DNA from: Microvirga sp. Mcv34
Lineage (GTDB): Bacteria; Pseudomonadota; Alphaproteobacteria; Rhizobiales; Beijerinckiaceae
Length of the DNA stretch: 64,000 nt
Assembly (NCBI RefSeq): GCF_024519725.1
Contig: NZ_JALJRK010000016.1
Coordinates: 1-64,000, forward strand
Direction of reading: 5' to 3'
Numbering within the stretch: the stretch's first letter is position 1; each line of letters begins with the position of its first letter. Both the position numbers and the translations under genes were made by a program. Below are positions 20,843-23,831 of this stretch, piece by piece. The notes under the pieces are model-generated. The model did not search any database. It saw only the letters and a list, made by a program, of their open reading frames with translations, and was not told where the DNA came from.

Positions 20843-22426
20843 TCAGGCGGCTTTCTTCTGGTAATCCTTCACGTCCGAGAACCGGATCGCCTTGTAGCGG
20901 TCGACCTCGTATTGAAGGTTGAACATGTTCGGCGCCATGAAGACCGGCGCGTCATCGAGATCCCGCGCCATGGACGACAGATGGCCCTCGATGAACTTGT
21001 CGAGTTCGCGCGGATCGTCCGCTGTGATCCAGCGGCAGATGGAGAAGCGGGTCGGCTCGTAATCGATGGGCAGGCCGTATTCGGCCGCGAGCCGCTCCTT
21101 CAGCACGTCGAGCTGCAGCGCGCCGACCACGCCGACGATGGCGCCGGAGCCGTCCTGCGGCACGAAGAGCTGCACGACGCCTTCCTCGGCCATCTGCTGC
21201 AGGGCCTCGCGCAGCTTCTTCGCCTTCATGGCATCCTGCAGCTTGATGCGGCGCAGGATTTCCGGCGCGAAGCTCGGCACGCCGCGGAACACGATGTCCT
21301 CGCCTTCCGTGAGCGTATCGCCGATGCGCAGGGTCCCGTGGTTCGGAATGCCGACCACGTCGCCGGCCCAGGCCTCGTCCGCAATGGCGCGATCCTGGGC
21401 GAAGAAGAATTGCGGCGAGTTCAGGCTCATGGGCTTGCCCGTGCGCACGAGCTTCACCTTCATGCCGCGCTGGAGTTTCCCTGAGCAGATGCGCATGAAG
21501 GCGATGCGGTCGCGGTGGTTCGGATCCATGTTGGCCTGGATCTTGAACACGAAGCCCGACATCTTGGGCTCGCCCGCTTCGACAAGGCGCTTGTCGGCCT
21601 CCTGGCCGCGCGGCGGCGGCGCATAGGCGGCCAGCGCGTCGATGAGGTCGCGCACGCCGAAATTGCGCAGGGCGCTGCCGAAGAACACGGGCGTGAGATG
21701 GCCTTCGCGGAAAGCCTGCAGGTCGAAGGGCTTGCAGGCTTCTTGCGCCAGCATGACCTCCTCCTGCCACGCATCCGCCTCTTCCGGTGGCAGCAGGCTC
21801 ATCAGCTTCGGATCCTCCGGGCCCGCGACCTCCGTCGGCTCCTCGTCCGTATCGATGCGGCGGACCATGTTGCGGCGCAGGTCGAAGGTGCCGGCGAAGC
21901 TCTTGCCCTGGCTGATCGGCCAGGTGACGGGTGCGGTGTCCAGCGCCAGGGTCTTCTCGATCTCATCGAGGAGGTCGAAGGGGCTGCGCGCCTCGCGGTC
22001 CATTTTGTTGATGAAGGTCACGATCGGGATGTCGCGCATGCGGCACACTTCGAAGAGCTTGCGCGTGCGCGCCTCGATGCCCTTCGCGGCGTCGATCACC
22101 ATGATGGCGGAATCCACCGCCGTCAGGGTCCGGTAGGTATCCTCCGAGAAGTCCTCGTGGCCCGGCGTGTCGAGCAGGTTGAAGACGCAGCCGCCATACT
22201 CGAAGGTCATGACCGAGGTCACGACCGAGATGCCGCGCTCCTTCTCGATGCCCATCCAGTCGGACCGGGTGGACACGCGGTTCTTCTTGGCCTTCACCTC
22301 GCCGGCGAGCTGGATCGCGCCGCCGAACAGCAGGAGCTTTTCGGTCAGCGTGGTCTTACCCGCGTCCGGGTGGGAGATGATCGCAAAGGTGCGGCGGCGG
22401 CCCACGGGGGCCGGAAGATCGGTCAT
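20843..22426 (-). CDS. prfC: Peptide chain release factor 3
   Basis: A 527-residue translational GTPase that recycles class I release factors from the ribosome. The G1 loop SHPDAGKTT is at about residues 18-26, the ERGIS switch near 63, DTPGHEDF (G3) near 87 and NKMD (G4) near 141; EF-Tu-like domain II and a C-terminal domain III follow. Length is typical for RF3. It is transcribed alone, with a 9-bp GC hairpin (20795-20824) downstream that lacks a clear T-tract. Confidence 0.97.
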   Translation of the reverse strand: MTDLPAPVGRRRTFAIISHPDAGKTTLTEKLLLFGGAIQLAGEVKAKKNRVSTRSDWMGIEKERGISVVTSVMTFEYGGCVFNLLDTPGHEDFSEDTYRTLTAVDSAIMVIDAAKGIEARTRKLFEVCRMRDIPIVTFINKMDREARSPFDLLDEIEKTLALDTAPVTWPISQGKSFAGTFDLRRNMVRRIDTDEEPTEVAGPEDPKLMSLLPPEEADAWQEEVMLAQEACKPFDLQAFREGHLTPVFFGSALRNFGVRDLIDALAAYAPPPRGQEADKRLVEAGEPKMSGFVFKIQANMDPNHRDRIAFMRICSGKLQRGMKVKLVRTGKPMSLNSPQFFFAQDRAIADEAWAGDVVGIPNHGTLRIGDTLTEGEDIVFRGVPSFAPEILRRIKLQDAMKAKKLREALQQMAEEGVVQLFVPQDGSGAIVGVVGALQLDVLKERLAAEYGLPIDYEPTRFSICRWITADDPRELDKFIEGHLSSMARDLDDAPVFMAPNMFNLQYEVDRYKAIRFSDVKDYQKKAA

Positions 22427-22548
22427 GGCGGTCTAAAATTCTCTGGGAACGACGGTGAAGGACAGAACGCCGCAGCGCCCCGCCCTTTTGCTGGGCTCTT
22501 CTCACCCCATATGGGGGTTTCCCGTCAACAGCGAAAGGAGGTGATCCA

Positions 22549-22623
22549 GTGTCTCATTGTCATACCCTACGGTCCCCGGTTGCCGTGACCTGGATCTTGG
22601 CCTCTGCCGAGATTGGTGCGTAA
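22549..22623 (+). CDS. 24-residue peptide with perfect Shine-Dalgarno
   Basis: A GTG-initiated small ORF whose peptide begins MSHCHTLRSPVAVTW and ends ILASAEIGA. The AGGAGG core ends 7 nt before the start, ideal spacing, and the complementarity to 16S rRNA extends through GATCC. There is no run of a single amino acid that would mark it as a classical attenuator leader, and no gene follows on the same strand before the terminator at 22669. I do not recognise a family. It may be a regulatory peptide, a dual-function RNA, or a ribosome-binding decoy whose translation is incidental. Confidence 0.55.
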   Translation: MSHCHTLRSPVAVTWILASAEIGA

Positions 22624-22668
22624 CGCACGTCAAGGAGCGGCTCCTTCAGGGCCGTGGAACCGACAATG

Positions 22669-22701
22669 GAAAGGCCGCCTCTCGGGGCGGCCTTTCTTTT
22701 T
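22669..22701 (+). terminator. Strong intrinsic terminator of the small transcript
   Basis: A perfect 11-bp stem (GAAAGGCCGCC at 22669-22679, GGCGGCCTTTC at 22686-22696) with a 6-nt loop and a following run of five T on the plus strand. On the minus strand there is no T-run, so it does not serve the M14 gene that ends at 22716. Its orientation supports a real plus-strand transcript here. Confidence 0.85.
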
Positions 22702-22715
22702 GGTTCAACGGATAC

Positions 22716-23831
22716 CTACGCCCCGAGCAGCTTGCCCGTCCGCTTCGCCGTGGTGCCGGCCACCTTGGCGATCCGCATGCCTTTGGTGGCGAAGCGCACG
22801 GCGACGCGGGCGAACATCACGCCGTCGGTGGGTGCCTTGGCCGGGGTCACGGCGCCGGTGAGCGGGTCGATCACCTCCGCCAGGACGTCGCCCTCCTTCA
22901 CGGTCGCGCCGATCTCAGCTCTGAACACCAGGATGCCGTTCTCGGGGGCCTGCGTCGGCTCGGAGGCCGCCAGGGGCGTGGCCCGGCACAGGGCCTCGGG
23001 AACCTGAGGCATCTCGCCGGCGATGGCGCCGCGCAGGATCAGGTAATCGATCAGGGCGGCCGCATCGGCTTGGCCGGTTTCATGGGTCACGTCGCGCTCG
23101 CCCCGGAACTCCAGCGTGGTGGAATGGCAGGAGAACGGGATCGGGTGATCCGGGAAGCGGTCGGCCAGCTCCGCCCAGGGGCGGCTGCAAGCCTCGTCGA
23201 AGGGCTCGTCGCCCGACTCGTCGGCGAGCAGATAAGCATGGGAGCCGATGAGCGCCGAGAGCGGGGCGAATTCCTCCGCCGAGCGGGTATGGGTGTAGAG
23301 ATGCACCACGGCTTCGGAGTCGCAATGCAGGTCGAGCACGATGTCCGCCTCCTGGGCGAGGCCCAGCAGGGCCTTCTTCATGACCTCGGCGGCGTTCGAC
23401 GGCTGCCAGGCCTCCAGCTCGGCCCGCAGGGCCTCGCGGATCAGGCGGACATTCGCCTCCCCGTCCTGCGTGAGCCGGCTCGCGATCCGCTCGGCCACCT
23501 TCGGGACGAGGTGCGGATAGCCCCGGTTGAAATTGACTCCGTCGGCGAGGTGAAAGCGCCCGATATGGTCTCCCATGACCCGCTGGGCGAGGCCGATGGG
23601 ATTGGCGGCGGGCACGAGGACGATCTCGCCCTTGATCCTTCCCTCCGCTTCGAGCGCGGTCAGGCGCTCGCGCAGGTGGTGGGCCGCGATCATGCCGGGG
23701 ATCTCGTCGGCATGGAGCGAGGCCTGGACGTAGATGCGAGGGCGGGCCCCTTCCTGTCCGAAGCGCTGAACCGTCAGGGACAGGTTCGCCCCGGGGGCGA
23801 GCGGCGAAAGAGCAATCTGTTCTGTTTTCAT
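22716..23831 (-). CDS. Succinylglutamate desuccinylase/aspartoacylase-family (M14) protein
   Basis: A 371-residue zinc-dependent deacylase or carboxypeptidase-like protein. Zinc ligands appear as SLHADE near residue 43 and the DLHCD motif near residue 168; a beta-rich C-terminal part (about 295-370) resembles the biotinyl-like domain found in this family. Members remove acyl groups from amino acids or small molecules. It is downstream of glk on the same strand, 66 bp away, and probably cotranscribed with it. The substrate is not evident. Confidence 0.84.
   Translation of the reverse strand: MKTEQIALSPLAPGANLSLTVQRFGQEGARPRIYVQASLHADEIPGMIAAHHLRERLTALEAEGRIKGEIVLVPAANPIGLAQRVMGDHIGRFHLADGVNFNRGYPHLVPKVAERIASRLTQDGEANVRLIREALRAELEAWQPSNAAEVMKKALLGLAQEADIVLDLHCDSEAVVHLYTHTRSAEEFAPLSALIGSHAYLLADESGDEPFDEACSRPWAELADRFPDHPIPFSCHSTTLEFRGERDVTHETGQADAAALIDYLILRGAIAGEMPQVPEALCRATPLAASEPTQAPENGILVFRAEIGATVKEGDVLAEVIDPLTGAVTPAKAPTDGVMFARVAVRFATKGMRIAKVAGTTAKRTGKLLGA

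Follow-up and report, generated by a model that had tools for sequence, protein, structure and literature searches.

A CC2171-family RNA gene between two minus-strand genes

The window analyzed here is a stretch of 64,000 nucleotides from Microvirga sp. Mcv34 (contig NZ_JALJRK010000016.1). It carries prfC (RF3; Pfam RF3_C) at positions 20843-22426 and an AstE/AspA-type gene at 22716-23831, both on the minus strand. Between them, on the plus strand, positions 22526-22694 match the Rfam family RF01867 (caulobacter sRNA CC2171). The score is 81.2 bits, against a gathering cut-off of 75, and the match spans the whole model (positions 1-159). The long-range helix and the terminator stem of the RF01867 consensus are both present in the window RNA, as seen in the alignment, the fold and the family covariation. 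The RNA is about 170 nt long and is encoded on its own between the two minus-strand genes. The family reportedly comes from Caulobacter array work.

A sequence-only reading of this DNA had proposed a discrete small RNA on the plus strand, and the full-length RF01867 match supports it. The elements that it listed are all present where it placed them, including the terminator downstream of the ORF. This intrinsic terminator (22668-22701) consists of a 13-pair hairpin, with G-T pairs allowed, at 22668-22697 and a T run; its stem covaries in the family. The catalogue identity of the RNA and the pairing of codons 2-9 with the segment before the terminator were absent from that reading. Other Rfam families (rnk_pseudo, STnc320, RNAI and others) were rejected for this region, with scores far below cut-off. 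The segment of 198 nt folds at -88.8 kcal/mol, compared with -71.8 kcal/mol for shuffled sequences (z -3.46, 0 of 200 as good).

By eye, a tentative promoter can be drawn from TTGCTG (22488-22493) and TATGGG (22510-22515), while a consensus scan upstream of the RNA detected no promoter. Among 100 cluster representatives, the region upstream of the ribosome site shows a mild T enrichment at -50 to -48 and A/T near -26. The TTG of the window lies 4 nt nearer the site than this T enrichment. The RNA begins with an A-rich 5' leader, CAACAGCG (22526-22533), in conserved upstream columns whose alignment consensus is CAACAACCG. A perfect 12-bp palindrome, CCCCATATGGGG, is found at 22505-22516. It overlaps the putative -10 region, recurs in the Microvirga loci L095, L116 and L131, and is a possible operator.

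The neighbors are not constant among relatives. With neighbor ORFs called by length only, the downstream neighbor lies on the same strand in 83 of 202 loci and on the opposite strand in 105, with 14 undetermined. The largest cluster of shared neighbors comprises 21 of the 202 loci, on the upstream side, and its listed members are Sphingomonadales.

Distribution in Alphaproteobacteria

RF01867 matches at E<=0.001 occur in 85 of 385 genomes of the class (14 above the cut-off) and, within the family to which the window belongs, in 85 of 149 (39 above the cut-off). The named control genome with a match is Caulobacter vibrioides. We also searched for a pattern made of the ribosome site and the start codon, AAAGGAGGTGRTCNNRTGTC. 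It is present in 79 of the 385 class genomes, at 80 places, and the reversed control pattern has no match in these genomes. In a draw of 299 genomes from the phylum it was found in 50. These all come from the 86 genomes of this class, and the other 213 genomes have no match. The feature in the window is not due to chance: it belongs to RF01867, its fold beats 200 of 200 shuffles, and its site and start recur in 79 of 385 genomes without reversed-control matches.

A scan of named genomes for the pattern gave at least 120 stretches. Judging by genus, we take them to belong to Sphingomonadales, Caulobacterales, Rhodospirillales, Acetobacterales and Hyphomicrobiales. A slightly shorter pattern with one mismatch allowed was found in 49 of 190 genomes, and its reversed control at 5 places. 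The loci fetched by pattern were preselected for the letters of the site and the TCTC, so they say nothing on the conservation of these letters.

At the RF01867 gathering cut-off, 12 of the 14 loci scanned gave no match, both MSHG-type Sphingomonas loci included. At E<=0.05, 19 of 20 divergent loci match RF01867 alone, two of them above its cut-off; the remaining one, L163, has no Rfam match at this threshold. In Sphingomonas sp. Leaf21, the CC2171-like MSHC form occurs together with the MSHG form (L121, L149). Since both occur in one genome, they are paralogues there. Another genome (G012) also has two sites. Locus L107 has the same form as L018, and its label, Candidatus Kuenenia stuttgartiensis, looks out of place.

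A start site complementary to the 16S tail

The extended ribosome site, GAAAGGAGGTGATCCAG (22533-22549, plus strand), is a 17-nt perfect complement of the 3' end of the 16S rRNA of the same genome (...GGCTGGATCACCTCCTTTCT), whose gene ends ...GGCTGGATCACCTCCTTTCTAAGG. The 14-nt match to the anti-SD that had been noticed before, AAAGGAGGTGATCC at 22534-22547, is confirmed and in fact longer. The GTG was said to follow seven nt later. It does when counted from GGAGG, but from the end of the 14-mer the distance is 1 nt. The predicted duplex with 16S has an energy of -35.2 kcal/mol, whereas a canonical site reaches -12.1 kcal/mol. AAAGGAGGTGATC is found twice in the 6.18-Mb genome assembly, at the window site and antisense to the 16S gene.

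The first 14 nt of the site, GAAAGGAGGUGAUC, are nearly invariant in the family. From 58 loci found with the RF01867 model, 46 distinct ones were counted; 2 scored poorly and 10 showed no differences in the 43 nt used for the comparison. Positions 1-14 carry 12 substitutions over the 46 loci, a conservation that is inflated because the model favors its own consensus. All 12 are A-to-G changes at positions 2 and 12, and every one keeps a G-U pair with 16S. This apparent restriction to G-U-keeping changes is a stronger point than the level of conservation itself. Positions 15-16 vary in the set of 202 loci (CA 98, CG 66, GA 12, CT 10, and others).

After helix 45, the 16S tail is given as GAUCACCUCCUUA in E. 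coli and GAUCACCUCCUUUCU in B. subtilis (PMC6107228). Taken with the conservation of positions 1-14, this known sequence makes the nearly invariant part the complement of 14 nt of the tail, beginning directly after helix 45. The comparison of relatives thus shows a start site under selection to pair with nearly the whole single-stranded 16S tail. The factor Era is described as contacting GAUCA and CCUCC of this tail (PMC10582724).

The mini-ORF is kept in start, frame and length

A GTG at 22549-22551 opens a 24-codon ORF, VSHCHTLRSPVAVTWILASAEIGA (22549-22623, plus strand), which ends with a TAA at 22621-22623. The same peptide is encoded in Microvirga arabica (L095) and M. guangxiensis (L116). 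The start, frame and length first read from the window alone are conserved in the family. The start and frame test was given 58 model-found loci, in 5 of which the site fell outside the segment inspected. All the other 53 have a start codon, GTG in 45 and ATG in 8. In the 202 distinct loci, a set preselected for RTG, GTG occurs 108 times and ATG 94 times. The one-mismatch search added TTG starts at 4 further places (G018, G029, G150, G160), each within an RF01867 match, and no CTG start.

We grouped 198 loci into 100 clusters with a crude ungapped cut at 60% identity. In 92 of them, the reading frame meets its first stop at codons 17-27, compared with 12 and 14 for the other two frames. TGA, TAA and TAG are all in use across the family. 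The ORF length is outside 17-27 codons in 14 of 202 loci, one of which (L041) is cut by the locus end. The conservation of RTG, and the stop placement compared with the other frames, indicate that the start and the start-to-stop distance are under selection. Exceptions to the short ORF are L085, L120 and L136 (Azospirillum) and L162, which have the same site and start followed by an ORF of 56-59 aa. These longer products resemble a small secreted protein (MSHGA..., with a hydrophobic stretch). Azospirillum oryzae L124 has a form with 26 codons.

The peptide behaves differently. Past codon 5, the single-change codons are 45 synonymous and 107 non-synonymous, a ratio of 0.98, close to the ratios of the wrong frames (1.03 and 0.94). 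This count used 197 ORFs of 14-35 codons in 46 disjoint equal-length pairs (152 codons); its power is modest, and the same letters are also constrained by RNA pairing. By group, the ratio was 1.60 in MSHG, 0.91 in MSH[CRS] and 0.73 in the remaining lineages ("other"). A similar count in seven neighboring gene groups, hand-picked from 22 listed clusters with one or two pairs each, gave 1357 synonymous versus 290 non-synonymous changes. So, the peptide past codon 5 looks neutral: start, frame and length are kept while most of the peptide seems to drift. The proposal of a micropeptide gene, as far as it implies a selected peptide, finds no support in these ratios. A sign to the contrary is that the TGG of the internal CTGGA motif described below is read in frame, as Trp, in 33 of 48 cases. 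A known peptide domain was also considered and rejected, given that neither the window peptide nor the 59-aa variant has a Pfam match.

An N-terminus of MSH followed by C or G is common, and its letters are those of a pairing strand, P1, read as codons. Where P1 differs, the N-terminus differs (MSHC, MSHG, MSNE, MSDE, MSRD). The second codon (22552-22554, and the same codon in relatives) is nearly always TCN, though its first two letters lie outside the P1 core. RNAalifold offers a weak pairing of this codon with the GGA of the ribosome site.

The coding start pairs with the segment before the terminator

Codons 2-9 form a duplex with a stretch of about 20 nt immediately upstream of the terminator. 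In the window, helix P1 joins CAUUGUC of codons 3-5 (22555-22561) to GACAAUGG (22662-22669), directly 5' of the terminator. Both strands are supported by the fold and by family swap tests, and the 3' strand also by RNAalifold. Helix P2 joins CUACGGUCC (22567-22575) to GGGCCGUGG (22649-22657), as indicated by the fold and the family duplex test.

The swap test covered 96 of the 100 clusters, since 4 had no called terminator, and some of the terminators used were miscalled (e.g., L008, L050, L147). Native duplexes have a mean energy of -19.2 kcal/mol, versus -14.6 kcal/mol with swapped partners, and the native duplex beats its own swapped mean in 86 of the 96 clusters. At least 6 contiguous P1 pairs are formed in 69 of 96 native combinations and in 31% of those with partners exchanged between dissimilar 5' strands. 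For at least 7 pairs, the values are 62 of 96 and 13%. Distinct P1 helices include CAUUGUC:GACAAUG, CAUUGCC:GGCAAUG, CAUCGUU:GACGAUG, CAUGGUU:GACCAUG, AUGAGAUU:AAUCUCAU, CGAGAUC:GAUCUCG, CACCAAA:UUUGGUG and CAUAGUU:GACUAUG.

We aligned 40 of the 58 CC2171-type transcripts with MAFFT (alignment A1). RNAalifold predicts P1 in these sequences, with a UA/CG exchange, and a covarying terminator; P2 is absent from the consensus of the 40 sequences. The strongly conserved parts of A1 are the site with the start and codons 2-4, the CTGG within the ORF, the 3' strand of P1, and the terminator. In 11 Sphingomonadales sequences an analogous P1 is predicted, without variation. A contiguous P1 of at least 6 pairs is kept in only 11 of 26 "other" lineages. 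Taken together, the comparison shows that the coding start lies in a predicted long-range helix, P1, with compensatory changes.

An internal anti-SD that changes with the site

Within the ORF, a putative anti-SD element (22590-22605, plus strand) is formed by CTGGATC (22590-22596) and CCTCT (22601-22605). CTGGATC is complementary to GATCCAG at 22543-22549. The A1 consensus at this place is GACCTGGATCnTCGCC, with G22593 invariant and C22590 kept in at least 90% of the sequences. CTGGA occurs in the ORF region of 30 of 58 MSH[CR] clusters, whereas shuffled sequences give a mean of 5.5 and a maximum of 13 in 200 rounds. The "other" clusters have it in 5 of 26 cases (shuffle mean 1.8), and the MSHG clusters in none of 11.

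The motif follows the letters of the site. CTGGA is present in 29 of 38 clusters with a site ending in CAG, versus 1 of 20 without it (Fisher p = 1.3e-7, ancestry ignored). The exchanges between site and anti-SD include CAG:CUGGAUC, CGG:CCGGAUC (L109), CGG:CCGGGUC (L056, L068), CUG:CAGGAUC (L032, L176), CCG:CGGGAUC (L028) and CAA:UUGGAUC (L033). Watson-Crick runs of at least 6 that reach the variable site letters are found in 25 of 96 native clusters, against 6% when the last three letters are taken from another cluster. With G-U pairs allowed, the values are 46 of 96 and 30%. At sites that do not end in CAG, there is a weak compensatory signal (9 of 52 versus 7% for Watson-Crick runs, and 46% versus 38% with G-U). 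The anti-SDs lie inside the ORF in 26 of 32 cases, modestly above the 61% share of the ORF in the body.

More generally, the site is more complementary to the body of the RNA than to dinucleotide shuffles of it, with a mean z of -0.80 and with p<0.05 in 16 of 100 clusters. In a stricter run with 94 clusters, the site had a mean z of -0.92. The corresponding mean for 24 permuted sites was -0.06 (sd 0.18, minimum -0.38), and the reversed site gave -0.39. By group, z was -1.57 in "other" (25 clusters), -0.78 in MSH[CR] (58) and -0.17 in MSHG (11). The lowest-energy internal partner of the window site is AGGAGCGGCTCCTTC (22633-22647, plus strand), with p = 0.09 against 200 shuffles, which is not significant alone.

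These results support the CTGGATC anti-SD as a family motif that changes with the site letters with which it would pair. The built-in anti-SD first proposed from the window therefore stands as a family motif with compensatory change, but it is not favored in the nested fold of the window. There, the CTGGATC:GATCCAG pairs have a probability of 0.000, and forcing them costs 7.8 kcal/mol (-72.2 versus -80.0 kcal/mol). Instead, the GGA of the site pairs weakly with its own UCC in a self-hairpin. In nested folds the site core is partly paired even without the anti-SD (mean unpaired 0.33 in 96 clusters). The folding method considers nested structures only and is blind to pseudoknots. The anti-SD and P1 pairings cross, so together they would form a pseudoknot. 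The ORF frame and the pairing are both kept in relatives, and the original idea thus survives the check that had been set for it, loss of both frame and pairing.

L080, from a Rhodospirillaceae MAG, additionally carries a perfect copy of the 16S tail, GGATCACCTCC, near the ribosome site. This copy is followed by CTACGGCTACCGTAGG, and by eye the two are reminiscent of the sequence near 16S helix 45.

A proposed ribosome-gated RNA and its alternatives

The comparisons of site, ORF, P1 and anti-SD among relatives support a masked switch and weaken the micropeptide. Our preferred reading, to which we give a probability of about 0.5, is that the CC2171-family RNA acts as a ribosome-gated structural switch whose output would be the RNA state and not the peptide. 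In the ribosome-free RNA, the anti-SD would mask the site. Anti-SD and P1 would close the start, either crossing as a pseudoknot or alternating. The tail of a 30S subunit would compete for the same site letters, and initiation and elongation would open both anti-SD and P1. With so short an ORF, the ribosome would be released ahead of the 3' domain, after which the RNA could close again. Its state, open and ribosome-loaded or closed and free, would be set by the supply of free 30S subunits. The retention of the ORF length, mostly without that of the peptide, suggests that what counts is reading by ribosomes. Against the gated switch, the anti-SD is almost absent in the MSHG form and P1 is patchy in the "other" lineages.

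A bolder reading is tentative, and we consider it possible rather than probable. The RNA might be an Alphaproteobacteria-specific sensor or decoy of the bare 16S tail on free or newly made 30S subunits. The tail-mimicking anti-SD would set the threshold, and the peptide-neutral mini-ORF would serve for release and reset. This reading fits how far the 16S match extends, and it also fits the Era contacts with GAUCA and CCUCC. If it is true, translation would be the signal with no need of a protein product, and the supply or maturation of small subunits could be coupled to the state of an RNA.

A simpler decoy seems unlikely to us. Here the RNA would just occupy the 16S tail on small subunits that are free or immature, and so titrate 30S or compete with factors such as Era that read these bases, while the ORF would merely let ribosomes leave. 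The nearly invariant complement of the tail up to helix 45 and the strong predicted duplex with 16S speak for it, as do the Era contacts at GAUCA and CCUCC (PMC10582724). However, titration requires a high copy number, and a pure decoy has no need of a fixed-length ORF, P1 or an anti-SD. The view that the locus is a gene for a functional micropeptide, mostly of 17-27 aa, under a masked start site is rather improbable. It accounts for the conserved start, stop and frame, the common MSH plus C/G N-terminus, the in-frame Trp codons and the ratios of 0.91 and 0.73 in two of the groups; some sRNAs do encode short peptides, e.g., rnTrpL (PMC10117765). Nevertheless, change past codon 5 is neutral overall, with a ratio of 1.60 for MSHG. 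The letters of the N-terminus belong to the P1 strand and differ with it, and Pfam recognizes neither peptide.

We consider it quite improbable that this is an ordinary trans-acting, base-pairing sRNA whose ORF and strong site serve just for ribosome loading and for protection of the RNA. Like many sRNAs, it is terminated, structured and stand-alone. Yet the conserved stretches of the 40-sequence alignment are the site and start, the CTGG, the P1 3' strand and the terminator, with no separate seed found among them, and the conserved site fits 16S. The RNA could also be read as the leader or attenuator of a neighboring gene, as attenuators often have leader peptides with internal pairing. This is hardly credible here, considering the terminator-like hairpin, the opposite strand of both flanking genes and the mixed strand of the neighbor in relatives. 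A leader-peptide attenuator was rejected on orientation, as the genes on either side of the RNA are both on the minus strand.

The comparisons suggest one ribosome-facing RNA design across several alphaproteobacterial orders. Its elements are complementarity to nearly the whole tail, a start in a covarying long-range helix, an internal mimic of the tail, and an ORF whose length is better conserved than its sequence. Should translation itself be the output of the gated switch, the RNA would be a simple natural case of coding in which the peptide is not needed, and a directly testable handle on the sensing of 30S supply by cells.

Relation to known RNAs

In the open-licence literature that could be searched, RF01867 is a catalogue entry only. 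We found neither the match to the 16S tail nor the neutral ORF nor the spread of the family across the class described there (subscription papers were outside the search). Queries on sRNAs that sequester ribosomes or bind the anti-SD, and on the site letters, returned nothing on point in the same literature. Rfam types the family as an sRNA, and its entry as covered in the Rfam 15 update gives no function, ORF or 16S match; the update lists one additional covarying pair for it (PMC11701678). In Mesorhizobium huakuii 7653R, MH_s33 is also annotated as RF01867, with a sequenced product of 215 nt. It is merely listed in the text consulted, where the nine candidates tested by Northern blot came from the unannotated ones (PMC5596092). 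The name CC2171 is absent from the consulted text of a Rhizobium etli survey. A Caulobacter atlas reports that two earlier ncRNAs are in fact translated, which are not named in its consulted part (PMC4117421).

Three known systems show some likeness. rnTrpL/peTrpL of Sinorhizobium meliloti is likewise a small RNA of an alphaproteobacterium, and its very short ORF is translated. It differs in being leaderless and tied to trpE, and its peptide is functional (PMC10117765), while the window RNA is stand-alone, has a 14-nt 16S match and encodes a mostly neutral peptide. The extended SD sites of Staphylococcus aureus likewise pair mRNA with 16S beyond the canonical SD. They aid start choice in mRNAs, whereas the window holds a stand-alone structured RNA that matches nearly the whole tail (PMC13009471). 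Finally, SisA-D of Caulobacter are alphaproteobacterial sRNAs with SD/anti-SD letters. Their polarity is the opposite, with a motif that looks like the anti-SD and presumably base-pairs with mRNAs (PMC12559287). Unlike SisA-D, the window RNA resembles an mRNA start and pairs with the letters of 16S.
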